From an uncultured Prevotellaceae bacterium (GTDB taxonomy: Bacteria > Bacteroidota > Bacteroidia > Bacteroidales > Bacteroidaceae): a stretch of 64,000 nucleotides of DNA. Every line of letters begins with the position of its first letter. The first letter of the stretch is position 1. Below are positions 29,886 to 46,100 of the stretch, one piece after another. The translations under genes and the position numbers were made by a program. The DNA is taken from positions 62,001 to 126,000 of the forward strand of contig ONNV01000003.1 in assembly GCA_900319225.1 (NCBI GenBank), given 5' to 3'. Under the pieces are notes generated by a model. The model was not told where the DNA came from and did no database searches. It saw only the letters and a list, made by a program, of their open reading frames with translations.

Positions 29886-30440
29886 TTACTTGCCGAAATA
29901 GCGTTTGTAAAGAGCCTCGAATCCCTTGCCGTGACGAGCCTCATCCTTGGCCATCTCATGAACGGTGTCATGGATTGCATCCCAGTTCTGGGCCTTGGCG
30001 GTCTTGGCAATCTCCAGTTTGCCGGCACATGCTCCGTGCTCAGCTTTCATACGTTTCTCAAGATTGGTCTTGGTATCCCAAACAACCTCACCCAGCAGTT
30101 CTGCAAAGCGGGCGGCATGATCAGCCTCCTCAAAGGCGTAACGCTTGAATGCCTCGGCAACCTCGGGGTAGCCCTCACGGTCAGCCTGACGGCTCATGGC
30201 CAGATACATACCCACCTCACTGCATTCACCGGTGAATTGCATGCGCAGGTCATTTATCATTGCCTCTGTAGTGCTCTTGGCGGTTCCCAGCTCATGCTCG
30301 CAGGCAAACTGCAGTGACTCGCCGTCATCTACTACCTCCTTGAATCTATCTCTGGGTGCTTTACACTGTGGGCAGCGCTCGGGTGCCTCATCTCCCTCAT
30401 GTACATATCCGCATACGGTGCAGATGAATTTCTTTTTCAT
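29886..30440 (-). CDS. Reverse rubrerythrin (N-terminal rubredoxin, C-terminal diiron domain)
   Basis: 184 residues. Peroxide (and possibly oxygen) reductase of anaerobes. Residues 1-40 are a rubredoxin-like iron site with two CxxC pairs ([23 protein letters not shown]). The rest is a ferritin-like four-helix bundle with [27 protein letters not shown] and [17 protein letters not shown], which hold the diiron ligands. The domain order is the reverse of classical rubrerythrin, as known from clostridia and Bacteroidales. Single-gene unit with a promoter box at 30481 and a terminator at 29816. Confidence 0.94.
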
Positions 30441-30480: not shown

Positions 30481-30488
30481 CAAATATA
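30481..30488 (-). promoter_or_regulatory. -7 box of the rubrerythrin gene
   Basis: Minus strand TATATTTG followed by CAAA, an exact TAnnTTTG, 41 bp upstream of the ATG. Confidence 0.6.
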
Positions 30489-30502
30489 ACTAATTTTTTT
30501 AT

Positions 30503-30907
30503 CTAGAAAGAAATGGATAGAAGTTCTTCACCTAACCTATGCAACGCTGATTCTATCCTATGGATTTGTTTCTTACGCGGCTTACGTCCGCCCGATGCAT
30601 AATGCCACAACTGTTTCTGGTTGATTCCAGTCAGCCGTTCCAGACCGGATTTACTGAATACCTCCTTGTAAAAGCCAAGAAAAGACTCTACGTCCATATG
30701 AAAATCCAGTTTATATGGCCCAGACAACAACTCCGGAACAGGTATATCTGATTCTTTACAAACGGAAATTGTTTCTTCTATGGCCGATTCCAGATTCCTT
30801 TTGATCTCATCAACAGTGTTACCGGAAACCATTATACTATCCAAGCCATCTATCATTGCACAATAGTTATTACCTGTGTGCGCTATCGTTACGTTCAGTT
30901 TTCTCAT
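30503..30907 (-). CDS. hicB: HicB-type antitoxin with C-terminal helix-turn-helix
   Basis: 134 residues. N-terminal HicB fold ([35 protein letters not shown], residues about 15-50) and a C-terminal DNA-binding segment ([41 protein letters not shown], residues about 90-130), the usual antitoxin layout: neutralise HicA and repress the operon. Its start overlaps the hicA stop by 4 bp (ATGA). The toxin-first order is the standard one. Base composition is more A+T-rich than the core genes, so it is probably acquired. Confidence 0.9.
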
Positions 30908-31128
30908 TTCTTCTTTTCAATCTTATCAAAATCTTCCATTGTAAGTCCAGCCTCTTTCAGAAGCCTTCTCAAAAAAGGATTGTAAATGTCATCGTTTCCT
31001 CTTCCCGGTACCGTAATACATCTTTTAGCCTCAGGATTGACAAATACATGATGATCACCTCTGGTTCTGGAATATGTCCAGCCCTTAGCCTCTAATAAGG
31101 CAATAAAGTCTTTTACCTTTTTGTTCAT
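30904..31128 (-). CDS. hicA: HicA-type mRNA interferase toxin
   Basis: 74 residues, a typical HicA length. The double-stranded-RNA-binding-like fold is shown by KDFIALLEAKGWTYSRTRGDHHVFVNPEAKRCITVPGR; the His pair in GDHHVF includes the catalytic His. Known HicA proteins cut mRNA and tmRNA. Complete with its antitoxin, so likely functional. A minus-strand TATTTTTG at 31131-31138 sits only 3 bp upstream of the ATG, which is too close for a normal leader, so the true promoter is uncertain. Confidence 0.92.
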   Translation of the reverse strand: MNKKVKDFIALLEAKGWTYSRTRGDHHVFVNPEAKRCITVPGRGNDDIYNPFLRRLLKEAGLTMEDFDKIEKKK

Positions 31129-31292
31129 GGCAAAAATAACTAAATTTCTACTATTATCAATTATTGGTCACTATTTTTCTACTTATTTCGACGAAAACAA
31201 GGGTATAACACATAGCATTAGACCACTGCACAACAAATATAAAGAAAAAAGCGGAAAGAATTATTCCACTTATGTATTATGCAGGAAACCAA

Positions 31293-31973
31293 CTATAAGG
31301 AAAACCGCAATGGCAATCTTGATGGTATTTTTAAACTGTTACAACACGCCACATTTGCCATTTCAGTATGGTGGTCCCCAAAATCCATATGAGCTACACG
31401 TTCAGATGAATCATGAATATGACCACCTATCAGAAATCTGATATTGCGGGACTCCACAGCTTTACGTAATTCCTTACAGCCAAGGTCTTTCATATCATGG
31501 TCTGAAAAACCTATATGGTTACAATCATACGGTACAGTATGCGTAAGTAACAGATCCAGCTCTTTGGGAATAAGGGCATAGCGCTTACGTAAACCATCAT
31601 CATCAAGAGAGAAAGACAAATTATGAAATGGAACTGGGACCCAAGGAGTTCCATAAATCTTTAGTTCCTTGTACTCAAATCCACTATCACACAGATACAC
31701 CAATTTTCCACCCTCTGAAGGTGCGAACTCCTTTAGCAGCACCTGATTGTTTACCGCGATCCAATGGTCATGGTTTCCGGCTATCAGAATAACACGATTG
31801 CATTCTATCTGCTCTACCCAAGGAATAAATGTATCACGGAACCATTTCCCCTGTGCCATTGGATCTTTATCCATCTCACCCGGAAATATATCACCACAAA
31901 TTACAGCCAAGTCCGATGGCTGCATTCTTGGAAGATAACCATGTGTATCTGAAACTGCAGTTACAAGAATCAT
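31293..31973 (-). CDS. Calcineurin-like metallophosphoesterase
   Basis: 226 residues. The five metallophosphatase blocks are all present: SDTHG, CGDIFPG, AGNHDHW, LLTHTVPYDC and GGHIHDS, so the dimetal site is intact. Substrate unknown; short members of this class hydrolyse nucleotides, phosphodiesters or phosphoproteins. It is cytoplasmic (no signal peptide). The start overlaps the stop of the PHP phosphatase by 4 bp, so the two work as a two-gene unit. The 164 bp between its end and hicA are A+T-rich with no supported gene. Confidence 0.9.
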   Translation of the reverse strand: MILVTAVSDTHGYLPRMQPSDLAVICGDIFPGEMDKDPMAQGKWFRDTFIPWVEQIECNRVILIAGNHDHWIAVNNQVLLKEFAPSEGGKLVYLCDSGFEYKELKIYGTPWVPVPFHNLSFSLDDDGLRKRYALIPKELDLLLTHTVPYDCNHIGFSDHDMKDLGCKELRKAVESRNIRFLIGGHIHDSSERVAHMDFGDHHTEMANVACCNSLKIPSRLPLRFSL

Positions 31974-32614
31974 TTTTGATTAAATACGTGGTTGTCAAAA
32001 AAGTCAATATAACGCTCGTTGTGAAGGTCTGTTCCCACCCATTCAAACATCCTTTCGGCAACCATCTCACCGGTACGAATGCTTACATCCTCACCATACA
32101 AACCTTCCAAAGAACCCAAATTGCGCTGGAACTCAGCGCCGGCATCCTTAAAGGCGCGGATCTGATACATCCCCATATAAGTATATCGTTCTGGATGAGC
32201 CAATACGGGCTGATATCCATCGGCTATCAAACTTCTTATCTCATCGACAGGTACTATACTACCCATCTGCGAAAGGTTATGTAATGGAAGTTCAATAAGA
32301 ATATGATTACCCTTCCAAGGCATCAGCCAATTATTCTGTCGTACCGTTGGCCAGGTTGATTCAGCAAACCTGTATTCCATAGATGGGACCAGATCCAGCT
32401 TTATACTTTGACGATCCAACTCTTCTCGTAACAAGTTGCAGGCATCAGTAACGGTCTTAGGCGTATTATGGAACAGGAATGAGCTGTGCGACGTACAGAC
32501 GGCACGCTCATAGCCTTGTTTGGCAAGCCAACCAGCCAGGTAGATGGCCTCTTTCAGATCCTTGGCTCCGTCATCTATTCCGGGTAAGATATGACAATGG
32601 CAGTCTATTTTCAT
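31970..32614 (-). CDS. PHP-fold tyrosine-protein phosphatase (CpsB/YwqE type)
   Basis: 214 residues. The metal-binding PHP signature is MKIDCHCHILPGIDDGAKDLKEA, with further ligands in CTSHSS, VPSMEYRF, LAHPERY and GTDLHNE. Known members dephosphorylate bacterial tyrosine kinases of capsule synthesis. Here no capsule or Wzc-type kinase gene is adjacent; instead it is coupled to a metallophosphoesterase gene (ATGA overlap). The target may be encoded elsewhere. Divergent from the membrane-protein gene at 32762. Confidence 0.88.
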   Translation of the reverse strand: MKIDCHCHILPGIDDGAKDLKEAIYLAGWLAKQGYERAVCTSHSSFLFHNTPKTVTDACNLLREELDRQSIKLDLVPSMEYRFAESTWPTVRQNNWLMPWKGNHILIELPLHNLSQMGSIVPVDEIRSLIADGYQPVLAHPERYTYMGMYQIRAFKDAGAEFQRNLGSLEGLYGEDVSIRTGEMVAERMFEWVGTDLHNERYIDFFDNHVFNQK

Positions 32615-32706
32615 ATTGATACAAAAATAGATATGAAAGACAACATTTCAAATACAACGGATAAAACTAATAATCAAAAAAATATTAATATATCAAACAA
32701 ACCATA

Positions 32707-32714
32707 TATCTTTG
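32707..32714 (+). promoter_or_regulatory. -7 box for the membrane-protein gene at 32762
   Basis: TATCTTTG, an exact TAnnTTTG, 47 bp upstream of the ATG at 32762. It supports that start over in-frame ATGs at 32597 and 32633, which would lie upstream of the transcription start. Confidence 0.55.
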
Positions 32715-32761
32715 AAATTCAAGCATTCACAATTAAACATCATTTCAACCTACATTGCTAT

Positions 32762-33460
32762 ATGAAATCGGAGAACAAAGTAACATTCAAGGATGACGGA
32801 ATAATATTATTCGCATTATACTATTTGTTCCGCTTTCTAAATTACTTATCTTTTTTTGGTATAATTAGATTGATATGTGACTGTTTACATAGATGGGCTT
32901 TTCGTCTCAGAAATCCCATAATCACAAAACAAGAATATAAAATAATGCGATCATGGTCTAATCCATTTGTATACAGTTCTCTTTTTTCCGAAATATGGGT
33001 AATATTCAATTTAATACTTTCAATTGTTACAAGTCTAATTATTAGGAACTATTCCGATCAATCCATTGGTAAGATCTTGTGCTTCTATGCAGCTTGGCGT
33101 TCTTTTGATATATTTGTTTACCAAGTGAATGTTTTACTTTTCGACCCCATAAAAGTTGGAATAAAACAATATAGAATAAAATCTGCCACAAGAATGATAC
33201 TCATGCTTTTTATCAATTTTGTAGAATACACCTTTTGGTTTTCATCCATATATATATTCTTCAAAGACGATTCTTACCGGAATATATTAAATGAAAGTTT
33301 TAAAATTCTTGCTAATATAACCAGCGGCGACTTTTTTGAAGGAAATCTGCTCTTTGTTGTAGCAAAAATCGAAACCTTTTTTGGAATATTTATAAATCTG
33401 GTATGTTTAGCTAGATTCCTATCAATGCTTCCTCCTGTTAAAAGTCAAAATAATAATTAA
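32762..33460 (+). CDS. Integral membrane protein, possibly a degenerate ion-channel-like pore protein
   Basis: 232 residues from the ATG at 32762. Upstream ATGs exist (32633 would add 43 residues), but the promoter box at 32707 argues for the shorter form. About five hydrophobic segments: residues about 13-40, 75-95, 105-125, 143-165 and 205-225. The last part (ANITSGDFFEGNLLFVVAKIETFFGIFINLVCLARFLS) is laid out like the pore helix, filter and final helix of two-helix potassium channels, but the TxGYGD filter is reduced to TSGDF. I make this comparison by eye and it is tentative. Strongly A+T-rich codons set it apart from the core genome. The following gene starts 7 bp downstream, so the two form an operon. 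No function is claimed. Confidence 0.6.
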   Translation: MKSENKVTFKDDGIILFALYYLFRFLNYLSFFGIIRLICDCLHRWAFRLRNPIITKQEYKIMRSWSNPFVYSSLFSEIWVIFNLILSIVTSLIIRNYSDQSIGKILCFYAAWRSFDIFVYQVNVLLFDPIKVGIKQYRIKSATRMILMLFINFVEYTFWFSSIYIFFKDDSYRNILNESFKILANITSGDFFEGNLLFVVAKIETFFGIFINLVCLARFLSMLPPVKSQNNN

Positions 33461-33467
33461 TACGATT

Positions 33468-34775
33468 ATGAAAAGGAAAAAAAAAATTCTGATAATAGAA
33501 GTGGGAGCTATTATCACTGGAATATTTGCATTTGCACTTGCATATTTAATTAAGCCTGAAATCGATATTGTTGCAATCATCTCTCTCTATGTCGCGCTGG
33601 GGGCATTAACCATCAGTTTAAAGACCTTTTATTCTATAGATGAAGTTAATGCGATAAGTCGCATGGATGGTAACATAATGGAGAATCCAAATTATCAGCC
33701 CAACTTATTTAGTGTCGTCTTAAATTATACAGATTCAGATTATAAGCAAGCTGCTAGTAAAATAATGGAGCATATGGAGGATTTATTCAAAAAAGAAAAT
33801 GTCCAAAGTGGAGCCCATCTTGCGGACAGCGTTCAGGAAGTAGCTGACATGATGATCTTCGTTCCTTTCTTGATACGGGTAAATAAGGATAAAAATTTAA
33901 CAGCAGACAGATATCAAAAAACTATTAACAATTTGATGGTTACAATAAATTGTCGTGTCAAAAAATACGAGGCCATTTCTGATGGTTCATGTAAGCTACT
34001 TAATGAAACGCTCAAACTGGTAGAATATGTTTTCTATTATCAACTTAAAAGTGCCCAAGAAAAAGCCGATCCTTCAAAACTATTAGATATCAGAGGCTCA
34101 CTGTTTGTTAATCCTGTTTCAATTATCCTATACAACGACTACCTTGGGCTGTATTATCTGCAGGAAGCTATCGGGTTGCTTGATCCAGAGACAAAGGAAG
34201 AGAAGAAAGACAAGAAAGAGAAAGATAAAAAGAAGCTTCTTGGAGAGTCAACAGAGTTTATTATAAGCCAACGAGATAAGATTGATGACGATACAAAAAA
34301 CTTAGCCATTTCATACTTAGAAACCGCAGTTAGGCTATTCAAAAAAGCTCTTGAAAACGTGGGAGAAGACACTATTTGGCGTGCATTTATATGTTACAAC
34401 ATGTCAAGAGCCTTATTCAATCTGACTATTCTAAACGTTCACACAAATGAAGATTGGGAAAAAGTAATCAACGAGAGTATTGTTAACTGGCATATATCAA
34501 ACCTAACCGTTAAAGATATATTTAAAGCTAAGTACAATGATCCAATAGACACTTGGTTACTAATTGCACAGAAAAGCCAAGAAGATAAGGTTAAACTTTC
34601 AAAATTTATTTTCCAGATTACAACAAAAAAACCACTGACAGACCATCATGGAAATATTTTGGTAGATAACTATCACGATATTCTCTCACATGATTATTTC
34701 AAAAATACAATCGATGATGATCCACTTGCCAGGACGAAAAAACTAAAGGAAGAAATCATAAAAAGATTATCATAA
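33468..34775 (+). CDS. Membrane-anchored protein with large helical cytoplasmic domain, unknown function
   Basis: 435 residues, not recognised. A basic start (MKRKKK) is followed by two hydrophobic segments (about 7-28 and 33-52), which would form a hairpin anchor with the rest in the cytoplasm. The remainder looks helical, with possible TPR-like pairs (AISYLETAVRLFKKALENVGEDTIWRAFICYNMSRALFNLTI, residues about 282-325). A lysine/glutamate-rich insert lies at residues about 245-262 (EEKKDKKEKDKKK). Same A+T-rich composition as the upstream membrane gene, 7 bp away. It converges on the AAA+ gene, whose stop is 37 bp beyond. The pair may be a membrane effector and its partner; that is inference from position only. 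Confidence 0.65.
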   Translation: MKRKKKILIIEVGAIITGIFAFALAYLIKPEIDIVAIISLYVALGALTISLKTFYSIDEVNAISRMDGNIMENPNYQPNLFSVVLNYTDSDYKQAASKIMEHMEDLFKKENVQSGAHLADSVQEVADMMIFVPFLIRVNKDKNLTADRYQKTINNLMVTINCRVKKYEAISDGSCKLLNETLKLVEYVFYYQLKSAQEKADPSKLLDIRGSLFVNPVSIILYNDYLGLYYLQEAIGLLDPETKEEKKDKKEKDKKKLLGESTEFIISQRDKIDDDTKNLAISYLETAVRLFKKALENVGEDTIWRAFICYNMSRALFNLTILNVHTNEDWEKVINESIVNWHISNLTVKDIFKAKYNDPIDTWLLIAQKSQEDKVKLSKFIFQITTKKPLTDHHGNILVDNYHDILSHDYFKNTIDDDPLARTKKLKEEIIKRLS

Positions 34776-34812
34776 GCTAACGAACCAATATAAAGGAGCT
34801 TACCAATAATTA

Positions 34813-37725
34813 TCAATACCCCACCCGGCCCTTCCGGCTATTCCACCTAAACGTTTCGATATCCGCAAGCTGGACCTGATGCTCCTTGGGACGGCGGGTT
34901 AGGCCGGACTCGCGCAGGATTACCTGCTGGTGGATGGTGCGGGACATCAGTTTCATGGTGCGGGCATTGGCCTCATAGCTGGATTTTAGCGTTGTGATGT
35001 ACTTCTTGATATGGGTCTCAGCTGCCGGAGAGAATGTTATCTTGAACTTCTTGAGACAGTTGCAGAGTATATCGTAAAGCTCATCGGGGGTAAAGTCTTT
35101 GAAGACAAGGGTGTGATCAAACTCGTAGATGCCAGCATCGGTCATCTGCTCGGCAACTGTCTTGTTGGGGGCATCGAGTTCAGCCAGGATAAGGGCACAT
35201 TCTCCGCCTACCTCAACGGTGAGTTCCTCCAGTTTCAGTTTTACGTTCTCCACGAAACTGCTGTATTCAGATGTGGATAGATCCATTTGTTTAGCATCAG
35301 CATCTATAAAGATCAGTCCGTTGCAGGATCTCTTGACAACTTCCTGTAGCCGGTTTTTAAACTCGGTTGGATGCTCTCTTAATAGGCTCTCTGCCTTGAC
35401 CTGAGTTATGTTGCTGTTAGCTATAAGGTGCATGCCTTTGAGTATGGCAGCCATGATCTCAGCTACGGTGCTCTTGCCGGTGCCGGATTTGCCGATAAAA
35501 CGCCATGAAAGCAGGCCTTTGCCCACATACGGTTCACCTATGGAATGCAGGTATCGGGCGGATTGAACAAAGTTGCGGATGGCTTGTTTTACATTGCTTA
35601 GCCCTGACAGATTATCAAGGCGGGCAAGCGCTGCGTCAATGGCCACATCATCAAATACCACATCCTTATATCTCTTTCCTATCACCACATCCTCCGGCTT
35701 GATTATGATAAGGTCTTCGGCCGATGGGTTCTTGACTGTAGCCAGACGTGACCCCATAGAAGCAAGGATCTGGTTCTGTATAAGGTTTGAGACATATCGG
35801 CCGTTACCAAAACGGGGTGACGGCTTTTTAGCCTCTTCATCAATGATGGCACGCAGATTTGCCTCAGCGCCATCAGACAGTTCCAGCCCTTGGTTCCCCA
35901 CCATGATTCGGGCTATCTGCATCAGCTCATCAGTGGTGTAATCCTCAAAGTTGAATACGTTGGGGAATCTGCTCTCTATACCCTCGTTACTCTCCATGAG
36001 CTTTTTCATGGGTGCGGTATAACCGGCCAGGATTACCACCAGGTCTGATTCATCATTACCCAGTTCTGTGAGCAATGAGTTCATGACAATGCGACCGTGG
36101 TCTTTCTCACCCCCTTCTACCAGTTGATAGGCCTCATCAATGAACAGGACATTGCCTTTGGCGCGGGCCAGCAGGTTGCGCATCTTGAACTCGGTCTCAC
36201 CTATGTACTGACCTACCATCTGGCTCTTCTCGGTACGTATCACATGACCGGTTGACAGGATTCCCCATGATGCAAATATCTTGCCTATAATTTTGGCCAC
36301 AGTGGTCTTACCGGTTCCGGGATTACCCAGGAACGCCATATGCAGACGCGGCATCCTGGTGGGAAGACCCTTCTCCATACGCAGATTGACAAGACGTATC
36401 ACATTGAGATAGTCATGAATCTTTTTCTTGAGGCTTCCTAATCCAATGAGAGCATCAAGTTCATTAATTACATCCGTATTACTGTTTAGTTCAGGAATAT
36501 CCTGCATCTCAACCATCTGCATCTTGCTTGGAGACGGATTACGCATGGAACTGATGCGACGAAACTGGGCCGGGATGATCATCTCATGGAATATTCGCTT
36601 TATCATATCCTGATTCTCATATTCCGCACCGCAATAGTTCTGCTTGTGCTGGATATACATCTCCAGCTTGTTACGGGCATCGGGCGTAAGTTTAAGCTTA
36701 TACTCGTTGCATACCGGGTCAATCAACCGGAACAGCTCTGTTGATTTGTAGTTATCAATATAGACGGGGGCCGAAAAATAGACCTTAAGCTCGGGATTCG
36801 CAGCAAAGAGGCTTTCCAGTCCCTCCTCATAACCGGACAGGACCATCATCCAACCGGATTGGTTCCGGGCCTGGCTTAGTGAATCAATGAGTGCCCTAAT
36901 TATCTGCGGCTCATTATCATAAATCTTGTATTCCGATTTGTAGAGTTCATGTGCGTTTTCAAACAGCAGCACTCCACTATACATGTCACTGATTTTCTTT
37001 GACATATTCCCGGAACCTCCGTTCACGGTATCAGAGAGCAGGCTGGATACGTTAATGGTTTGTACATCACAACCATTTATCAGGCCCAGGCTAGAATAGA
37101 TATCGGCCATCATCTCTACGCATCCGGTTAAATTTGTTCCGATGCCTCCAATCAGGATAGTATTGAGTATGGGACGAATCTCCGGCAGTCCTGCCTGCAT
37201 TCTCTCCTTGCTTACCCTGCTGTGTATCACCATATCATCAATACGCTTTTTGAAACTATCCATACCGGGCATATTATGGAGGTTCTCAAGCATATCATCA
37301 AAAGTGGCGTTCCCTTGATGTGATGACACATTCGGCCAGGGGCCATACATAGTAACCTTATTACTCTTAATCATCTTGCCATCCTTGTACAATGTCATGA
37401 CAAGGGCGTCTTTCTGGTCAACTTCCAGTTTATAATCATCATTTACCAGATCCTCCATGCGGAATGGCGTGAAATGAAGATGATTGCCATCACGGAACAT
37501 CTCTATGGAATCTTTATCCCATGTGCACTCCAGCTTTTTCTGTTCACTGGCAGTCGTAATCTCAACTCTCAGATCATTTTCGTCAGAAGGATAGGGAACT
37601 TGAAGGTCTATATGAATAAATTTCTTCTCATCTGGATGAAAGGAAGCAATCATACCATCAACCGGAAACTCTATTGGCGTATCATCAAGTTGGCAATGGA
37701 ACTTGAATTTAGCAGATAGTCTCAT
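34813..37725 (-). CDS. Triple-module CbbX/SpoVK-like AAA+ protein, only the middle module canonical
   Basis: 970 residues from the ATG at 37725 (an in-frame TTG 9 codons upstream overlaps the promoter). An N-terminal beta-rich domain (1-125) is followed by three AAA+ modules. Module 1 (about 150-400): P-loop degenerate (GGIGTNLTG, 193-201), Walker B LLFEN, arginine-finger position Tyr316. Module 2 (about 420-670): GNPGTGKT at 467-474, VLFIDE at 526-531, LAGY at 566-569, arginine finger in SRFP (Arg586), sensor 2 FGNGRY. Module 3 (about 700-935): P-loop GKSGTGKS at 745-752, but Walker B is FIDAD (Ala809 instead of Glu) and the finger position is Glu868. So probably one hydrolysing, one binding-only and one dead module. 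The family remodels protein complexes; the target here is unknown. Divergent from the alpha-CTD-like gene. Confidence 0.85.
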   Translation of the reverse strand: MRLSAKFKFHCQLDDTPIEFPVDGMIASFHPDEKKFIHIDLQVPYPSDENDLRVEITTASEQKKLECTWDKDSIEMFRDGNHLHFTPFRMEDLVNDDYKLEVDQKDALVMTLYKDGKMIKSNKVTMYGPWPNVSSHQGNATFDDMLENLHNMPGMDSFKKRIDDMVIHSRVSKERMQAGLPEIRPILNTILIGGIGTNLTGCVEMMADIYSSLGLINGCDVQTINVSSLLSDTVNGGSGNMSKKISDMYSGVLLFENAHELYKSEYKIYDNEPQIIRALIDSLSQARNQSGWMMVLSGYEEGLESLFAANPELKVYFSAPVYIDNYKSTELFRLIDPVCNEYKLKLTPDARNKLEMYIQHKQNYCGAEYENQDMIKRIFHEMIIPAQFRRISSMRNPSPSKMQMVEMQDIPELNSNTDVINELDALIGLGSLKKKIHDYLNVIRLVNLRMEKGLPTRMPRLHMAFLGNPGTGKTTVAKIIGKIFASWGILSTGHVIRTEKSQMVGQYIGETEFKMRNLLARAKGNVLFIDEAYQLVEGGEKDHGRIVMNSLLTELGNDESDLVVILAGYTAPMKKLMESNEGIESRFPNVFNFEDYTTDELMQIARIMVGNQGLELSDGAEANLRAIIDEEAKKPSPRFGNGRYVSNLIQNQILASMGSRLATVKNPSAEDLIIIKPEDVVIGKRYKDVVFDDVAIDAALARLDNLSGLSNVKQAIRNFVQSARYLHSIGEPYVGKGLLSWRFIGKSGTGKSTVAEIMAAILKGMHLIANSNITQVKAESLLREHPTEFKNRLQEVVKRSCNGLIFIDADAKQMDLSTSEYSSFVENVKLKLEELTVEVGGECALILAELDAPNKTVAEQMTDAGIYEFDHTLVFKDFTPDELYDILCNCLKKFKITFSPAAETHIKKYITTLKSSYEANARTMKLMSRTIHQQVILRESGLTRRPKEHQVQLADIETFRWNSRKGRVGY

Positions 37726-37749
37726 AAGCAAATCATTAACTGATAACCA

Positions 37750-37757
37750 CAAATATA
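37750..37757 (-). promoter_or_regulatory. -7 box of the AAA+ gene
   Basis: Minus strand TATATTTG, an exact TAnnTTTG, 24 bp before the ATG at 37725. It lies in the 108-bp divergent region shared with the gene starting at 37834. Confidence 0.55.
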
Positions 37758-37833
37758 TAACTTATTTTGTAATTTAGCAGAACTGTAACCGATTATTGCT
37801 TTGAAAGAAAAGGACCTGATAGAGAGTAAAGAG

Positions 37834-39264
37834 ATGAATCCCTGGCTTATGGATGAGGTCAAGGAATTCCGTTATACGCACAGTGAGATAGAGCTGCGCA
37901 TAGATTTTACTCAACGATCCGATAACGCCAGGAAGTTGAGTTGGGAGGACTATGTAACGTGGCGGACTCTCATTGACGCCATCGAATACAATCCCTTCCT
38001 GAAGGTGCCCCGTGTATCCATGGAGTTGTCAGAGCAGGTAAAGGAATGGCTGTATTGGAATAACGTGGACATAGTGTTGGATCTAGTCCAGATGTCCGAT
38101 GAGGAACTGCGTGCCATATCCGCTGTTGACAAGACATATTACGACCAGGTAACCCGGTTCCTGTCCGATAACAACATCACACTGCGTCATTGCGCCCAGA
38201 GGACATATAAGATATCATCCGGCTGTTTTACGATAAGAGAATGTCCTTCCACATTGGAAAAATGGATAATAAATCCACCAGGCAACGTGCATACATTCAA
38301 CAAGACCAGACCCTCACTGTATCCTGAATGGTTTGATGAGCACTACAAGATTTACTGTCATACAAAAGATGAGGAAAAAGTCTGCAAAAAAATAACCCCC
38401 GTCGGAGCGGGAGTATCAAGCAAGATAGCACAGGAATTCTACGAGTTCCAGAAAACGCTGAACGAAGTCTGGCAATCATATTATAAGATCTGTACCAAAT
38501 ATCATTTTCATCCCATTGATCCCAGTTACCACATCCCCATAGATGATAAGGAACTCAGGGCAATGCCACTTTACGGATTCATTGAACTCAAGAAAGACGC
38601 TTTCCGTGCTGCTATATCGGCTTATGAGCAAACCAATCTGATATGCAACCTCACATCACATAAATATATCTTTGAAACCAGCGATGAACGCAGGCTTAAT
38701 CTCTGTGAGGAGGAGCAAGATGATGCCATACAACTCATGATGATCAGTCTGGTTGCCATGCGTATTGATTTTGAGAATATAGTATGGTATCTGGAAATGT
38801 GTTTCAAGTTCAATCAGAACCCATGCAATGACTGGCCTATAAATCCCTGGCTACAGGAGGCTATCAGGGAGTATCGTTCAATATATTCCGATAAACAACT
38901 GCGCAGTCAATATGACAAATCGTGTGAGACAAAGCGGGTCAAGACCTGGATAGGTTTTGTATCGGACCAGGCGCTGCAAAGAAAGATAGACAATAACCCG
39001 GCACTGCTTACGTACATTGATGATACCTCTCTGGACGAATCCGTCAAGAAATCTCTGTCACACTATCATATCACTACCATTGCCAATCTGATGCAGTTCA
39101 CAGACATGGAACTGGCAATGCTGTTTGACGGAGACAAGGACAAGGTCCGGCTTATAGATGATTATTTGAAGGAACAGGGCCTGCACCTGTATCATTCGGA
39201 CCGGCTAACCTACAAGATATCCAAGAAAATACGCCAGCTGCTGGACCAATCTAAAAAAGATTGA
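37834..39264 (+). CDS. Protein with a 127-residue internal duplication ending in RNA-polymerase-alpha-CTD-like domains
   Basis: 476 residues from the ATG at 37834, which follows a purine-rich GAGAGTAAAGAG; a TTG at 37801 is the alternative. Residues 2-128 and 337-463 align without gaps over 127 positions, 37 identical by my count (NPWL...YKIS at both ends). The second half of each copy (62-119 and 398-454) matches the helix-hairpin-helix fold of the alpha C-terminal domain of RNA polymerase (LSEQVKEWLYW..VDIVLDLVQMSDEELRAI against the E. coli ELTVRS..DLVQRTEVELL region). At the E. coli DNA-contact positions Arg265 and Asn268, copy 1 has Gln68 and Glu71, copy 2 Ser403 and Lys406, so DNA binding of the usual kind is unlikely. 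The middle (about 130-335) is unrecognised. Not a true rpoA. Function unknown. Confidence 0.75.
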   Translation: MNPWLMDEVKEFRYTHSEIELRIDFTQRSDNARKLSWEDYVTWRTLIDAIEYNPFLKVPRVSMELSEQVKEWLYWNNVDIVLDLVQMSDEELRAISAVDKTYYDQVTRFLSDNNITLRHCAQRTYKISSGCFTIRECPSTLEKWIINPPGNVHTFNKTRPSLYPEWFDEHYKIYCHTKDEEKVCKKITPVGAGVSSKIAQEFYEFQKTLNEVWQSYYKICTKYHFHPIDPSYHIPIDDKELRAMPLYGFIELKKDAFRAAISAYEQTNLICNLTSHKYIFETSDERRLNLCEEEQDDAIQLMMISLVAMRIDFENIVWYLEMCFKFNQNPCNDWPINPWLQEAIREYRSIYSDKQLRSQYDKSCETKRVKTWIGFVSDQALQRKIDNNPALLTYIDDTSLDESVKKSLSHYHITTIANLMQFTDMELAMLFDGDKDKVRLIDDYLKEQGLHLYHSDRLTYKISKKIRQLLDQSKKD

Positions 39265-39287
39265 TCCTATAATACCAACAAAATGAC

Positions 39288-39295
39288 TAATTTTG
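39288..39295 (+). promoter_or_regulatory. Promoter of yicC-gmk-nadD
   Basis: TAATTTTG followed by CGCA, 22 bp before the ATG, with a TTG at 39261-39263 (24 bp upstream) as a possible -33 element. Confidence 0.6.
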
Positions 39296-39317
39296 CGCAT
39301 CAAAATAATTGCACATT

Positions 39318-40193
39318 ATGATTCAGTCAATGACAGGTTACGGCAAGGCTACAGCCGAAGTCGGAAACCGTAAGGTGATAGTTGAAATAAAGTCGCTCAA
39401 CAGCAAGGCTATGGATATATCAACCAAGATTATCCAGGCATACCGCGACAAGGAGCTCGATATCCGCTCACGCATCACAGCTGCACTGGAGCGTGGCAAG
39501 GTAGATTTTTCACTTTATATTGATGCTGCCGCCGCTACCGGTGCGCAGACCATCAACGCAGCCATATTCAACAACTACCTGCAGCAGATTGAATCAATTG
39601 CCGCACAGACTGCTTATAAGGTTCCTGAGGATATAATCACGACCGTTCTGCGCATGCCCGATGTCATTAGCAGCAACCAGCAGGATGAGGTGAGCGAGGA
39701 GGAATGGGCTGCCGTATCAAAGGCTGTTGACCAGGCAATCAACGCACTTGTTGATTACCGCAAAGTTGAGGGCGCCGCACTGGAAAAGAAGTTCCGCGAG
39801 AAGATTGCCAACATATCGGCCCTGCTGCAGTCCGTAGAGCCGTATGAGAAGGAGCGTGTAGCCAAGATCAAGGAGCGTATGCGCGCCAACATGATTGATG
39901 CGGTCGGCAAGAACTATGACGAGAACCGCTTTGAGCAGGAGATGATATTCTACATAGAGAAGCTGGATATTAGTGAGGAGAAACAGCGTCTGAGCAACCA
40001 TCTGGACTACTTCATCAAGACTCTTGAGGAGGGTCACGGACAGGGCAAGAAGCTGGGATTCATAGCTCAGGAGATGGGACGTGAGATCAACACCCTGGGC
40101 AGCAAGAGCAACCAGGCCGAGATGCAGAACATCGTGGTCCGCATGAAAGATGAGTTGGAGCAGATAAAGGAACAGGTGCTGAACGTAATGTGA
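39318..40193 (+). CDS. yicC: YicC-family endoribonuclease
   Basis: 291 residues from the ATG at 39318. N-terminal signature MIQSMTGYGKATAEVGNRKVIVEIKSLNSKAMDIS and the C-terminal DUF1732 block (EEKQRLSNHLDYFIKTLEEGHGQGKKLGFIAQEMGREINTLGSKSN) define the family. E. coli YicC is an RNase acting on small RNA, and the gene is commonly next to gmk, as here. The stop is 5 bp before the gmk ATG. Confidence 0.94.
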   Translation: MIQSMTGYGKATAEVGNRKVIVEIKSLNSKAMDISTKIIQAYRDKELDIRSRITAALERGKVDFSLYIDAAAATGAQTINAAIFNNYLQQIESIAAQTAYKVPEDIITTVLRMPDVISSNQQDEVSEEEWAAVSKAVDQAINALVDYRKVEGAALEKKFREKIANISALLQSVEPYEKERVAKIKERMRANMIDAVGKNYDENRFEQEMIFYIEKLDISEEKQRLSNHLDYFIKTLEEGHGQGKKLGFIAQEMGREINTLGSKSNQAEMQNIVVRMKDELEQIKEQVLNVM

Positions 40194-40198
40194 TTCAT

Positions 40199-40768
40199 AT
40201 GCGCGGAAAATGTCTTATATTCTCAGCCCCGTCAGGTTCCGGTAAGTCAACTATCGTTCAGTGGTTGCTAAAGCATCCTGAGCTAAAGATGGTATTCTCA
40301 ATATCTGCCACCAGCCGCGCTCCCCGTGGTACCGAGCAGAACGGCGTGGAGTATTTTTTCCTTACAGCCGATGAGTTCCGCGCCCGCATAGCCAAGGGTG
40401 ATTTCCTGGAGTATGAGGAGGTCTATTCAGGTTGCTTTTACGGAACTCTTAAAGAACAGGTTGAAAAACGCTTGAATGAGGGCATGAACGTAGTGTTTGA
40501 CGTGGATGTTGTGGGTGGCTGCAATATCAAGAAATGCTACGGGGACGAGGCCCTCTCAATGTTCATCCAGCCCCCATCGGTAGAGGAGTTGGAGCGCCGC
40601 CTCAAGCTGCGCGGCACTGACAGCGAAGAGATGATTGCCAAGCGCGTGGCCAAGGCCAGCTATGAACTCACTTTCGCTCCCAAGTTTGATGTCGTGATCG
40701 TGAACGACGTCCTTGAGGAGGCTCAGCAGAAAGCATTATCTACAATCAAGTCTTTCCTTAATGTCTGA
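40199..40768 (+). CDS. gmk: Guanylate kinase
   Basis: 189 residues from the ATG at 40199; a GTG at 40190 overlapping the yicC stop is an alternative. Phosphorylates GMP to GDP. P-loop SAPSGSGKST, GMP-binding SRAPRGTEQNGVEYFF, and DVDVVGGCNIKK follow the family pattern. Middle gene of the yicC-gmk-nadD operon; its end overlaps nadD by 8 bp. Confidence 0.96.
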   Translation: MRGKCLIFSAPSGSGKSTIVQWLLKHPELKMVFSISATSRAPRGTEQNGVEYFFLTADEFRARIAKGDFLEYEEVYSGCFYGTLKEQVEKRLNEGMNVVFDVDVVGGCNIKKCYGDEALSMFIQPPSVEELERRLKLRGTDSEEMIAKRVAKASYELTFAPKFDVVIVNDVLEEAQQKALSTIKSFLNV

Positions 40769-41339
40769 GCGTATCAGGACAGCCTTGCTGGGAGGAACAT
40801 TCAACCCTCTCCACAATGGGCACCTGACCATTGCACAGAGCGTATTGGACCAGCATCTGGCCGATGAGGTGTGGATGCTCATCACCCCCTGCAATCCCTG
40901 GAAAACCGGACAGGATCTGCTGGACGACCGCATCCGTTACGATATGGTGGCAAGCGCTGTCAAGGATATCCCGGGCATACAGGCATCGGATTTTGAGTTC
41001 GGCCTGCCCAAGCCCTCATACACCGCCAACACGCTGCGCAGCCTAAGCGCCAGCTACCCCGACCGGGAGTTCATCCTCACCATCGGCGCCGACAACTGGG
41101 TCAAGTTCGATGCATGGAGGGAGTACGATTTCATCCTCCGCAACTACAGCATCATCGTATACCCCCGCCAGGACTGTGCTCCCTCTACCCTTCCCGCCGG
41201 CGTCACCCTCCTGAACTGTCCCTTAGTAAACATCTCATCCACCCGGATCCGCCAGCTGGTCCACCAGGGCCAACCCATAGACAAATTTGTCCCGGCATCT
41301 GTTGCCAGGACAATTGCAGACCTTCAGCTCTACCGTTGA
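40761..41339 (+). CDS. nadD: Nicotinate-nucleotide adenylyltransferase
   Basis: 192 residues from the ATG at 40761, chosen because it begins just before the nucleotide-binding motif LLGGTFNPLHNGHL. Adenylates nicotinate mononucleotide in NAD synthesis. The C-terminal ISSTRIRQ motif is present. The start overlaps the gmk stop in another frame. The stop codon abuts a perfect 31-bp palindrome. Confidence 0.94.
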   Translation: MSERIRTALLGGTFNPLHNGHLTIAQSVLDQHLADEVWMLITPCNPWKTGQDLLDDRIRYDMVASAVKDIPGIQASDFEFGLPKPSYTANTLRSLSASYPDREFILTIGADNWVKFDAWREYDFILRNYSIIVYPRQDCAPSTLPAGVTLLNCPLVNISSTRIRQLVHQGQPIDKFVPASVARTIADLQLYR

Positions 41340-41406: not shown

Positions 41407-41886
41407 TTGCTTTTCGATGAGAGCGACAGCATGGGCAGAGATGCCCTCCTCACGGCCGGTAAAGCCCAGCTTCTCAGTGGTAGTAGCCTTGATTGAGACC
41501 TGGTCGGGTTCGATACCCATGACCTGAGCCATCACCTGCTGCATCCGGGGGATATGCGGATTGAGCTTGGGGCGCTCGGCACAGACTGTGGCGTCAACAT
41601 TCACCACCTGCCACCCTTTGGCAGCAAGCAAATCCACAGTACGTTTAAGCAGTATCTTGCTGTCAATATTCTTGTACTGCATATCGGTATCCGGGAAGTT
41701 GTAACCGATGTCACGCAGCGTGGCGGCACCCAGCAGGGCATCGCAAATGGCATGAATCAGCACATCGGCATCAGAGTGTCCCAGCAGACCCAGGGTATGG
41801 TCTATCTTGATACCACCTATCCACAGCTCACGACCCTCGACAAGGCGGTGAACATCAAATCCGTATCCTACGCGTATGTTTGTCAT
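41404..41886 (-). CDS. ispF: 2-C-methyl-D-erythritol 2,4-cyclodiphosphate synthase
   Basis: 160 residues. Fifth step of the MEP pathway (dxr is at 24605). Zinc ligands in GYGFDVHRL and GHSDADVLIHAICDALLGAA, plus IGYNFPDTD and the C-terminal TTEKLGFTGREEGI. The start overlaps the porV stop by 4 bp, so it is read from the same transcript. The stop codon lies in the palindrome described at 41340. Confidence 0.97.
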   Translation of the reverse strand: MTNIRVGYGFDVHRLVEGRELWIGGIKIDHTLGLLGHSDADVLIHAICDALLGAATLRDIGYNFPDTDMQYKNIDSKILLKRTVDLLAAKGWQVVNVDATVCAERPKLNPHIPRMQQVMAQVMGIEPDQVSIKATTTEKLGFTGREEGISAHAVALIEKQ

Positions 41887-43118
41887 CGGCCGAAAATCTG
41901 TTTAATACCGTCCATATCAAATGACAGGGTGAAACGCAGCGTCTGGTCCAGAGGATTGCTCTGTGCGGTAGAAATCAGGTAGGCGGCATCAAGTGAGAAT
42001 ACATTCATCTTGAAACCGGCACCGACTGTGAAATACTTGCGGTTACCCTTATACTCGTTCTCGTAGTGGTATCCTCCACGCAGGAAAAACTGGTCATTGT
42101 AGTTGTACTCGGCACCTACGCCCCAGTAGATCTCACGCAGCTCCTCCTCCATTCCGCCCGGAGCGTCACTGAATGACTTGAATATACCCGATATGGGAGA
42201 CATCTCATTGTAACCGGTTCCGGCCAGCCACTGGGCATACTCCGATGTGTACTGCAGATCCTTGGGGTCCTCGCCCGCATGCTCCTCCTCCATGAACTGC
42301 TGGTAGGTAGGACGTGTGGGAACCATCAGCTTGTTGGCATCGGCCGATATGGCAAATGAGTTGTACTCATCGATTGGCACGGTGAGCGATACACCCAGAC
42401 GCAGGTTGGTGGGTATGAACTCATTGGTCTGACCTCCGTCATATGATATTTTGCTACCGATGTTAGATGCGTTGAGTCCCAGACCCAGCAGGCAGTCACG
42501 GCGTCCTACACCGATGTAGTTCTGGTAGAACATGGAGATATCGGCCGAGAAGGCCTTGCCCGGGAATACGTCATCATTATAGTTGTACTGCAGGTCCGAG
42601 TATATGAACCTGAGACCTACGGCAGCCGAGAAGTTCTCAGAGAGCTTGCGGGAGTAGTCAAAATCCAGGGCCATCTCATAGGGACGGATAATGATGTTGC
42701 TTGATGTCGCGGCTCCTGAGCTGCCGTTAATCACATATACATCACCCAGTGAGAAATATGTGAGAGATCCGCTCAGTGCGGAGTAATCATCCAGCTTGTA
42801 ATATCCGGTAAGATTGGCCAGGTCTATGTCATCGACCAGCTTACGCAGCCACGGTGTATAGCAGAGTGACACACCTGCCTGACTCTTGGTAAAAGGATAC
42901 TTGGAGGGGTTCCAGTACTGGTTGTTGTTATCCATGTAAGGGTCTGTGGCACAACCCACGTCACCCATGGCACCTGCACGGGAGTCAGGGGCGATTGAAA
43001 GCGATGTCACACCCGTGTACACAGGGTTGAATATCTCTTTCTGTGCAGATATGGCTTGAGCCGACAGGATGACTCCTGCCGCAACAATCATTCTCTTTAC
43101 TATATTGTTTATCATCAT
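41883..43118 (-). CDS. porV: Type IX secretion outer-membrane protein PorV
   Basis: 411 residues with a signal peptide (ending AISAQ). PorV is a 14-strand barrel that binds cargo at SprA and shuttles it to the PorU attachment complex. The N-terminal block VTSLSIAPDSRAGAMGDVGCATDPYMDNNNQYWNPSKYPF is the family signature; the rest alternates as beta-strands and ends near FTLSFDMDGIKQIFGR. It lies 32 bp after porU, the same porU-porV order as in Porphyromonas gingivalis, and overlaps ispF by 4 bp. Confidence 0.95.
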   Translation of the reverse strand: MMINNIVKRMIVAAGVILSAQAISAQKEIFNPVYTGVTSLSIAPDSRAGAMGDVGCATDPYMDNNNQYWNPSKYPFTKSQAGVSLCYTPWLRKLVDDIDLANLTGYYKLDDYSALSGSLTYFSLGDVYVINGSSGAATSSNIIIRPYEMALDFDYSRKLSENFSAAVGLRFIYSDLQYNYNDDVFPGKAFSADISMFYQNYIGVGRRDCLLGLGLNASNIGSKISYDGGQTNEFIPTNLRLGVSLTVPIDEYNSFAISADANKLMVPTRPTYQQFMEEEHAGEDPKDLQYTSEYAQWLAGTGYNEMSPISGIFKSFSDAPGGMEEELREIYWGVGAEYNYNDQFFLRGGYHYENEYKGNRKYFTVGAGFKMNVFSLDAAYLISTAQSNPLDQTLRFTLSFDMDGIKQIFGR

Positions 43119-43150: not shown

Positions 43151-46100
43151 TCACTGCCCCACAATTACCAGCTTGCACGATGCCTGTGACGACTCTCCGC
43201 CGCTGCCCACAGTGGCTCTGATCAGATAAAGACCGGGCTGCATCCTGTGACCGGAGTTGCCGTGCAGATTCCACTGTATCAGGGTAACGCCGGTGTTGCC
43301 GTTGTCATTCTCAGAGTGCGTCCACTGGACGGTGCCGTTCATATCGGCCACCTGGATATTTATGCTTGCATCCTGTCCCGGACGGTCATGAGTAATGACG
43401 AATGTGGTGCTTTCACGGGCAGGACTCTCAGTGACATCGATCGTGAACTTGGGTTCCAGGTCACTGACAACCTTGAATCCCAGATATACCGTCTGTGAGT
43501 TGTTCATCATATCCCACGCACGCACCATGAGGGTATGCTTGCCCTCGGGCAGCTCAGGCATGGGGAATGTAACCGTGCCACTGGTGTAGTCACCCGGAGT
43601 CTGCCTGAAATAACTGTTGAGCACCCAGGTCCAGTTGGGGTTGTTATCCACAACTACCAGCAGGTCATGACCCAGTCCGTTACCCGATGTATTGATACCC
43701 GAGCTGTCCTGCAGCTCCACAACCAGCAGAGGCGTGCTGTTCACGTTTGCTCCGTACTGGAATGAGGGAGTATTCAGATAGAGCCCGATTGACGGCCCCA
43801 CGGTATCGGTAGCCAGACCTGCGGCAGTACCTCCTACCGTGAAGTTGTCAAAATGGCCGTGAGCCGTATAGCCGCTGTCGCTGATGGCATAGAGCATTAT
43901 CTGGCCCTTCTCATCAGAGTAGTTTATATCCATCGGAACGGGGAAAGTGAGAGTGAACTCACCTCCACGTACTGAGTCCGATCCCGCATAGAGCACGCGG
44001 TCACGGTACTTGAACCGGAACGGCTCATCGGCAACCTTGAGATTGTCAAAGCAGGTGATCATGCGCTCACTGTCATACACGGTGGCCGACAGCATGCCTC
44101 TATAGCTGTCCATCTTCTCTCCGCCGCACTCCACATGGCCGCGTACGATCACCACAGCACCTGCTGCCACAGTCCCCAGGGCCGATGCCTCCACGCCGTC
44201 GATCGAGTCAACCACAACCGCCAGCTGCGGGGCAGCCAAACGCAATGCGGGATCACCCAGCAGCACATAGTGAATCTTGTTCTCGGACATGTCAGTCTCA
44301 CCCTTTCCGGCAGTGACCAACTCATTCTTGGCCAGACGCAGGGCATCACCAAGCGCGTAGGGCTCTCCGTCATCACCATATGCCAGGACGTAGCGGTTAA
44401 AACTCAGGTTCATGCACCTGTTAAGGGATGCGTATACCGTTCTGGTAGTTGACAGCATACCTATTGCGCCACCGGTCTCATTACCTGTCAGATTCAGGCC
44501 CAGACTCTCCAACGGGGAGTCAAACGGAGCCACATCACAGGATGCGGTAATCCAGAACGGCAGACGCGGAGACTTGAGCTGGCGCACATCATTCTTGCTT
44601 ATGACAAGCTCATGTGACAGGACCTCGGTGCTGCCATGGCCTGAATAATTGACTATAAGCACACCCTTGTCAAGCTCCTCAAGCAGCTGCTTGCGTACAC
44701 CCGGGTATCCGTTATATGAAGCCGACACCTCCATCTTGTATGAGTCCCACATCATCTTGCGGACGTCCATATCAGGGTAGAGACTTGAATAGAGGTTTGC
44801 CACGTCATTGGCATCCTTCATGTGGGTGTTGTTATCACCGTCATCACCCAGCACCAGTATCCTGTTGGTCCAGGCACCGGCATAACGGCCCTGCATATAG
44901 TCTATCAGCTGGTCGACCTCACTCTTGGCCTGTGCGGCAGTCATGACAGGTATACGGCCCACTCCCAGGTCAACCTTCTCCGACAGCAGGTTCACGCCCT
45001 CGCTGTCATCCAGCAGACCGAAATAATCCTCCATCACGTATGATGCGGTATGGCTCAATGACTCATAAGACTCATAACAGAGCAGGTAATCATCGGGATC
45101 CTGTCCTGCCCAGTCCGATACATGCATGCGGTTGTCCCATGCGCCCTGGCCCATAAGCAGCAGATAACGCGGTGCAGCGGCACCATCGCGGTCATAGAGC
45201 ATTTTCATGAAACGGCGCACCGCTGTGGCATCGGGGGTACCGGATGAGAACTCATTGTATATCATATCGGCCTTTACCACCGCCACGTTCAGGCTGTCAA
45301 TGGTTCTGTGAGCCTGAGCCAGACGCTCGGCCTGAGCTGTAATCCTGTCCGATGCCGGAACCACAATCACCATATCGACCGAATCCAGCCCATGCAGGTT
45401 CTGGTTTGCCACCCTGCCCACGCTCCTGGGCTCCGGGAACTTGCCCGCGGGATTCACTGCAACCAGTATGTCATTACTGCTGTAATCGGCCCTTAATGTA
45501 TAGGTCTTTCCGTCAGAATACTCAGTGGGGATAACCTGTGCGGTACCGTCATCACTTATCCTCCATACCATCACGCCGGGAGCGGAGTTTGATATGCAGA
45601 AACTGGCGTCACTCAGGTTCTTTGCGGTCCTGAACACCGTGCTTGAGCCGTACATGGCCAGAGTGCGGTTAAAGTTCAGACGAATATAATCCAGATGACC
45701 GGTTGAGCCCGATGCGGCATTGAACGTAAGGCGTATATCTGATGCGTCACGGAACTGTCCGCGGCTTATGAAACTCCTCTCCCTTACCACTGCAATATCC
45801 TGTACGCCCAAGGTTCCCAGATTCATGACGCCCGTCTCAGAGCCGTTTACAGACACCGCAAGCCTTGCACCGGCGGCAGCTGAACTTGAGAACGCCACAG
45901 TCACGCCCACGCTATCCGGTATAATACCTTCAGTCTGCATCTTGTATGTACGGGAGCCGCCTGAGTAATCATAAGACTCAAACATACGTCTGCCGGACCG
46001 GTACCAGCTGAACTCATCGGGATCAATCACGGCATAATCAGGATAGGTATCCAGAATGCTCTCCGACACGTTATCTGACGTAAGAGTGCCGAACGATGCA

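Follow-up and report, generated by a model that had tools for sequence, protein, structure and literature searches.

Work to date describes the studied members of the SpoVK-CbbX-EccA clade of AAA+ ATPases as dedicated chaperones, and the consulted part of that description lists three marks of the clade: a Gly-Tyr (GY) pair in sensor 1, an asparagine 4 residues upstream of the first arginine finger, and a second arginine finger in sensor 2 (PMC10659427). Here, we describe a three-module relative encoded in a 64,000-nucleotide stretch of an uncultured Prevotellaceae bacterium (GenBank assembly GCA_900319225.1, contig ONNV01000003.1, positions 62,001 to 126,000), referred to below as the window. 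The nearest solved protein by sequence is CbbX, the red-type Rubisco activase (3syk, 3zuh), which matches module 2 (E value, 1e-47) and shares its motifs at the P-loop, Walker B, pore loop, and finger. CbbX has one module, whereas the window protein adds two modules and an N-terminal domain. Tandem AAA modules of unequal roles are likewise found in NSF, p97/Cdc48, Rix7/NVL, and Drg1, but these proteins have two rings rather than three and belong to other AAA families. No paper on multi-module CbbX-like proteins of Bacteroidales was found in a literature search from which subscription journals were largely excluded. The ATPase is single copy in its own genome and is laid out as follows (window positions, all on the minus strand):

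34813..37725, minus: three-module AAA+ ATPase, 970 amino acids from ATG (open reading frame, library and profile matches)
37306..37725, minus: N-terminal domain rich in beta strands, residues 1-140 (low-confidence AlphaFold2 model)
36496..37281, minus: AAA+ module 1, residues 149-410, degenerate, with GGIGTNLTG, FENAH, and Tyr316 at the finger (profile, AlphaFold2)
35686..36462, minus: AAA+ module 2, residues 422-680, complete motor by motif (profile alignment, CbbX match)
36301-36327, minus: module 2 P-loop
36133-36138, minus: module 2 Asp530-Glu531
35968-35970, minus: module 2 Arg586 finger
34858..35622, minus: AAA+ module 3, residues 702-956, binding-only by sequence (profile alignment)
35470-35493, minus: module 3 P-loop GKSGTGKS
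35296-35304, minus: module 3 D-A-D
34816..34830, minus: C-terminal tail GRVGY (conserved form, [KRTS][VIL]G[FY])

The open reading frame (ORF) is free of stops from either TTG 37752 (979 amino acids) or ATG 37725 (970 amino acids) to the stop at 34813 on the minus strand. TAnnTTTG is a -7 promoter consensus, and by eye an element of this type overlaps the TTG; we therefore prefer the ATG, the start used in a first-pass annotation of this DNA. A family hidden Markov model (HMM) scores modules 1, 2, and 3 at 189, 303, and 177 bits, indicating that all three are genuine homologues, as that annotation had proposed. Pfam matches are AAA and AAA_lid_6, and the NCBIfam SpoVK, CbbX, and EccA models each match three stretches of the protein, each under its equivalog cutoff. 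The scores fall short for both SpoVK (TIGR02881, 377.9 of 422.95 bits) and EccA (TIGR03922, 280.7 of 466.65 bits). A Rubisco activase was rejected both on the CbbX model (TIGR02880, 315 of 459.25 bits) and on the lack of any match to the Rubisco large subunit (PF00016) in the organism's own genome, which is 85% complete. An AlphaFold2 monomer, built on an alignment of 20 proteins (the window's and 19 from the named loci described below), has a mean predicted local distance difference test (pLDDT) score of 76. Most of the chain is confident, and AAA+-like elements appear in all three modules, the point on which a structure prediction had been proposed as a check. Foldseek with the whole model returned CbbX first and then two-ring AAA proteins (Drg1, p97, Rix7, NVL), the latter over ~540-770 columns at low template modeling (TM) scores of 0.19-0.35 to the query.

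Alignment to the HMM shows module 2 to be the sole module of the window protein with a predicted complete catalytic site, finger, and pore loop. Its motifs are GNPGTGKTT, VLFIDEAY, AGY, NEGIESRFP, and GNGR, together with a GQYIG pore loop and the sensor-2 arginine Arg643. The clade's sensor-1 GY is present in modules 2 (AGY) and 1 (SGY) and absent from module 3 (AEL), and its second arginine finger is found in modules 2 (R643) and 3 (R922) and is absent from module 1. The clade asparagine fits less exactly: N580 of module 2 lies 6 residues before R586 rather than the 4 given in the consulted part of PMC10659427, and another asparagine may be meant there.

Module 3 has an intact P-loop (GKSGTGKST) and a Walker B motif, LIFIDADA, with Ala809 in place of the catalytic glutamate, followed by D810, the invariant second aspartate of this module. 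Its finger column is without arginine; Glu868 lies in that loop, with the HMM column one residue further, and the loop aligns poorly and has pLDDT below 50. The sensor-1 GY signature and the pore-loop motif are lost, and the sensor-2 arginine is retained (NAR, R922). These features suggest that module 3 probably holds ATP and is without the parts to burn it. Module 1 is more heavily altered. The P-loop lysine is gone (GGIGTNLTG), as are both Walker B acids (VLLFENAH), Tyr316 occupies the place of the arginine finger, and the sensor-2 arginine is absent. It is nonetheless AAA+ by profile, and its modeled helices and strands are confident and, on our reading, in AAA+ order. The first-pass annotation had thus placed Tyr316, Ala809, and Glu868 correctly and was right that only module 2 is complete in this protein.

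We gathered relatives from 301 genomes of the family and from a genome collection, where the best-scoring 80 named loci were kept out of 593 relatives; a module 3 profile was also run against 393 genomes of the order. Counts exclude L010-L016 and L018, which are shorter copies of L039-L046, and module matches of fewer than 150 model positions. The window protein falls in a group of at least 22 proteins that share this third module, 14 found first and 8 later; counts of members are lower bounds. All 22 module 3s have a GxxGTGKS P-loop and a Walker B of the form hhhD-x-D, with x being Ala, Gly, Met, Leu, or Val. The sensor-2 arginine is present in 22/22, and neither an arginine at the finger column nor the aromatic-hydrophobic-Gly pore-loop motif occurs in any. 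Module 2 is complete in every member. The conserved design of the group is, by motif, a motor plus a binding-only third module. The altered module 3 is, on this evidence, a feature of one group and not of three-module proteins at large, because the distant three-module proteins L062, L105, and L129 have three intact modules.

Module 1 behaves differently across the same 22 proteins: intact in 3 (L040, L189, L193), degenerate in 16, undetectable in 2 (L190, L191), and beyond the end of the contig in 1 (L166). Loss of the P-loop lysine is confined to the window protein, L039, and L154; the other 13 of the 16 degenerate copies retain it. Module 1s are also scattered in a tree of 233 modules from part of the loci, each of more than 190 positions, and by these patterns module 1 is drifting within the group. 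The dead, active, and binding-only pattern first described therefore holds for the window protein, but as a conserved design it reduces to the motor and the binding-only module 3. Likewise, the question of local decay in this strain, raised with that description, has two answers: module 3 is without an intact Walker B or finger in 22/22, and module 1 is intact in 3/22.

In the same tree, the module 3s of the 14 first-found members are monophyletic (support, 0.85), so the module 3 glutamate appears to have been lost once, long ago. Their module 2s fall on one branch (support, 0.97) whose only other modules are three from the two-module proteins L047-L049, and this inferred branch is support for the group that is independent of module 3 similarity. 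The tree also places module 3 beside degenerate actinobacterial modules, a placement that probably reflects long-branch attraction and that we disregarded. Between the window and G314, the closest relative (87% identical), the ratio of nonsynonymous to synonymous substitution rates (dN/dS) is 0.155, 0.152, 0.054, and 0.041 for the N terminus and modules 1, 2, and 3, respectively. The corresponding values against G288 are 0.248, 0.115, 0.085, and 0.070, with saturated synonymous distances of 1.2-2.4. Module 3 is constrained as strongly as the motor module 2, and the N-terminal domain is fast-evolving, as is module 1.

The C-terminal tail is a further constant, with [KRTS][VIL]G[FY] in the last 12 residues of 24/24 proteins (the 22 group members and two sisters, L195 and L196). 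A looser pattern is found in the last 20 residues of 56/105 multi-module proteins versus 7/1001 control ORFs and in 0/14 actinobacterial multi-module proteins; many Bacteroidota multi-module CbbX-like proteins carry a tail of the [KR][VI]G[FY] type. The view that the family consists mostly of one- and two-module proteins proved too narrow, as 23, 12, and 1 of the 105 have 3, 4, and 5 modules, respectively. Separately, L053, L066, L067, L069, L076, L089, L108, and L128 are four-module CbbX-like proteins of ~1100 amino acids in which the first module has Walker B DN for DE and keeps the finger arginine, followed by three intact modules.

How the modules might be arranged was addressed through the fingers. 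In homotypic rings of like modules, an intact site would depend on a finger from its own type of module; with modules side by side, the finger would have to come from a neighbor. In 105 multi-module proteins, a set that predates L154, L166, and L189-L196, the finger is present in the same module for 199/199 intact sites, in the next module for 164/199, and in the previous module for 165/199. The 14 first-found members are more discriminating, with an own finger for 15/15 intact sites, a next-module finger for 1/15, and a previous-module finger for 1/15. When fingers were shuffled within the 35 mixed proteins, with kinship ignored, 0/10000 shuffles reached zero mismatches (mean, 21). Because intact sites track the finger of their own module, we favor stacked homotypic rings with a single motor ring over a dynein-like ring.

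We lean, by a small measure, toward a multi-tier AAA+ protein remodeler of the SpoVK-CbbX-EccA clade, with one motor ring, an ATP-holding ring 3, and the assistance of the partner protein encoded next to it. Chains would assemble into hexamers, each kind of module forming one ring of a stack. The module 2 ring would hydrolyze ATP and pull on the substrate, and the module 3 ring would hold ATP unburnt, as an assembly clamp or a nucleotide sensor beside the motor. The D2 domain of NSF does such a job, being a C-terminal ATP-holding ring paired with a motor ring. Module 1 and the N-terminal domain might serve as a recognition or adaptor tier, and the partner protein may deliver the substrate or a signal.

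The ATPase and its partner lie in a genomic island:

30488..39281, no strand: genomic island between rubrerythrin (29886-30440) and yicC (39309), absent from the site in most of the genus
32591..33460, plus: neighbor 2, 289 amino acids, hydrophobic (by eye)
33468..34775, plus: neighbor 1, 435 amino acids, convergent with the ATPase and hydrophobic at the N terminus (by eye)
37753..37800, no strand: shared 48-bp intergenic region of ATPase and partner (promoter-like element by eye)
37801..39264, plus: partner gene, 487 amino acids, divergent from the ATPase

The partner is helical by low-confidence prediction and has two repeats that weakly resemble the RNA polymerase alpha C-terminal domain (helix-hairpin-helix, HhH; E value, 4e-4, below the cutoff). 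Homologues lie directly adjacent to the ATPase in 9/23 loci (window, L154, L039, L059, L041, L042, L044, L060, and L103), six divergent and three codirectional. The L039 copy is a shortened variant, and that of L154, a close relative, was found later. The partners have two N-terminal types, and a profile made from either one detects the other (E values of 8e-11 and 5e-13 among 4776 ORFs). Strong matches in the 301 family genomes are confined to 5 genomes, each beside an ATPase, with 5 further weak matches (2e-4 to 5e-4); the five strong genomes also supplied the profile, so that this search speaks to absence elsewhere and not to new cases. The partner had no match on plasmids.

Both flanking genes are on one contig in 35/37 genomes of the genus, with G297 and G301 unreadable and G255 and G313 counted although one flanking gene is broken or partial. 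They lie 74-880 bp apart in 31/35 (by subtraction), a distance that often leaves space for rubrerythrin, as seen in L155 and L157. Larger spacings are found in the window (9.5 kb), G288 (9.8 kb), G314 (13.6 kb), and G243 (2.2 kb, with other genes). The ATPase is at the site in 3/35 readable genomes. The window and G314 match at 86% over 34812-41167; similarity ends at the 3' end of the ATPase and resumes only at a CpsB-like gene (31968-32618) and beyond. In this gap, neighbor 1 matches a 2TM effector profile weakly (E value, 4e-4), a search of the 300 other family genomes gave no match to it, and library scans assigned neighbor 2 to no family. The counterpart in G288 is a 1242-amino-acid protein with a weak STAND match. 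In G314, it is a protein with RCK and RyR matches below the cutoff plus two TIR-hexapeptide proteins above it. In L154, two TIR proteins with C-terminal hexapeptide repeats (8716-10989 and 11002-13536) adjoin an RCK/RyR-like protein, in the same island as the ATPase.

No integrase was found among the island ORFs scanned and no tRNA in the window. An imperfect repeat of 15 bp, found at the ends of the island, occurs four times in the region, may be due to chance, and was discarded. Other genes of the region include a calcineurin-like phosphoesterase (window 31293-31973) that is 57% identical to one at L044:578-1348, with the ATPase system nearby in both loci, and a 134-amino-acid UPF0150-like protein inside the island (30503-30907; HicB type, weak, below the cutoff). 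Further out, a large C25 peptidase of the gingipain family (43151-46879; E value, 2e-92) stands beside a 411-amino-acid protein (41883-43118). Together, these two look like a PorU/PorV pair of type IX secretion, the second being a putative member.

Because the ATPase and partner form the core of an island whose other genes change, the arrangement suggests a dedicated, non-housekeeping role. The neighborhood points perhaps to conflict with phages or rival elements. Genes near members include an NYN nuclease (L040), CARF-TM and RAMP (L043), Csx1 CARF-HEPN (L060), McrBC and an HpaII-like gene (L045), and DUF4062 with a relative of the RCK/RyR protein (L192; E value, 7e-35). Altogether, with G314 as the sixth, TIR, RCK/RyR-like, CARF, NYN, DUF4062, or restriction genes occur within ~12 kb in 6/23 loci, a count made without a random-gene control. 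The RCK/RyR-like protein was rejected as a dedicated partner, as it occurs in at least 37/301 family genomes at an E value of 1e-20 and is common cargo; among the matches listed, it is near a CbbX-like gene (by eye) only in G243. Phage RyR-domain proteins act on TIR-made signals, according to the consulted part of PMC13232231, and in that light the TIR and RyR-like cargo of G314 is suggestive, no more. Conflict systems offer a precedent: in the FtsH component of MoxR-vWA ternary systems, an active AAA+ domain follows a dead one. That component differs in being of the FtsH type, with two domains, and in working alongside MoxR and vWA proteins (PMC7159879; Kaur et al. 2020). None of the five window neighbors scanned is a MoxR or vWA partner. 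PADLOC gave no full-length model match for the ATPase, only partial AAA matches (best E value, 7e-11 over 70 residues).

Phage and viral sequences were also searched. In viral contigs, 122 stretches match module 3 patterns and none is a relative. Among phage records, 11/50,697 match the ATPase protein; the best, MT835894.1 (L209), is labeled a bacteriophage and was rejected as a chromosomal fragment, with six genes 96-99.7% identical to the surroundings of the L191 ATPase.

A more specific proposal, which we put forward tentatively and consider unlikely, is that ATPase and partner form a two-gene conflict-system core. Here, the conserved, finger-less third ring of a triple-tier AAA+ protein would be an ATP clamp setting the threshold of the motor ring, with an adaptor encoded beside it and swappable membrane or TIR/RyR-type effectors.

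Several observations weigh against the remodeler and its conflict setting. Group membership was decided mainly by module 3 similarity, which favors finding the pattern, and the scan that yielded the 80 named loci used intact-module motifs, leaving relatives with a dead module 2 under-sampled. In the sisters L195 and L196, module 3 retains K, D, and E (D-E-D), module 2 is dead, and no module has a finger. Together with ten other intact sites from the later loci, they bring the own-finger count to 209/211, as its two exceptions. The shuffles ignored kinship. The coupling runs one way only, as a finger persists beside a non-intact site in 13 modules outside the group. For module 3, D810 could be a relocated acid, so that the predicted absence of hydrolysis may not hold, and a crude one-column pore-loop flag is positive for the window protein, which has His there. 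The predicted TM (pTM) score of the AlphaFold2 monomer, 0.40, leaves the arrangement of modules and the order of tiers unfixed by the model. The partner was not found in 14/23 loci (including L166, a 3.1-kb contig), and its structure model, at pLDDT 40, is not usable. Finally, several members or sister proteins, including L189, L191, L195, and L196, sit amid ordinary-looking genes (by eye). As an observation in its own right, L195:7465-10896 and L196:8046-11495 are three-module sisters that are possibly fully non-hydrolyzing AAA+ proteins.

Those ordinary surroundings fit a housekeeping or envelope chaperone, comparable to SpoVK for MurG or CbbX for Rubisco, with no conflict role and the island incidental. 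So does the uncontrolled count of defense-type neighbors, and the known members of the clade are dedicated chaperones (PMC10659427, in the part consulted). Set against this are the patchy distribution at the island site (3/35 readable genomes), the swapping of neighbors between close relatives, and the defense-type genes near 6/23 loci. We regard this alternative as rather unlikely, although it survives better than those that follow.

Plain decay after tandem duplication would make module 2 the only one that matters, with modules 1 and 3 as remnants without nucleotide function. Module 1 fits such a history, being variously degenerate (intact in 3/22, undetectable in 2/22) and faster-evolving. 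Module 3 does not: its P-loop, D-x-D, and sensor-2 arginine are kept in 22/22, and its dN/dS is as low as that of the motor, so we find decay improbable as a general account. Slow ATP hydrolysis by module 3, with D810 or a conserved glutamate at residue 838 standing in for the lost one, seems to us no less improbable. The D-x-D is invariant in 24/24 (including the D-E-D of the two sisters), and the glutamate before the sensor-1 strand is invariant in 11 sequences, though it is not so listed in a 9-sequence alignment; against these, the finger-column arginine and the GY sensor-1 signature are both absent in 22/22.

Dynein and midasin typically mix active and inactive modules in one chain, and four- and five-module relatives exist, but a dynein- or midasin-like ring, in which two chains with three modules side by side would give six modules and fingers would act on the neighboring module of the same chain, is very improbable and was rejected, as module 2 would need a finger from module 1 or 3 (both fingerless in 13/14 members), a neighbor's finger serves only 1/15 intact sites on either side, all 199 intact sites track their own, and six is not divisible by four modules.

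A remodeler with one motor ring and an ATP-holding third ring thus remains the reading toward which we lean. The division of labor between motor tiers and non-hydrolyzing ATP-holding tiers is best known from eukaryotic machines. The group described here would offer a bacterial counterpart with natural variants, in which module 1 is intact, degenerate, or absent and module 3 is always without the catalytic glutamate and finger, so the role of silent AAA+ modules may lend itself to direct tests on single soluble proteins. Together with the turnover of neighboring genes, the partner gene marks a possible new conflict system in Bacteroidales.

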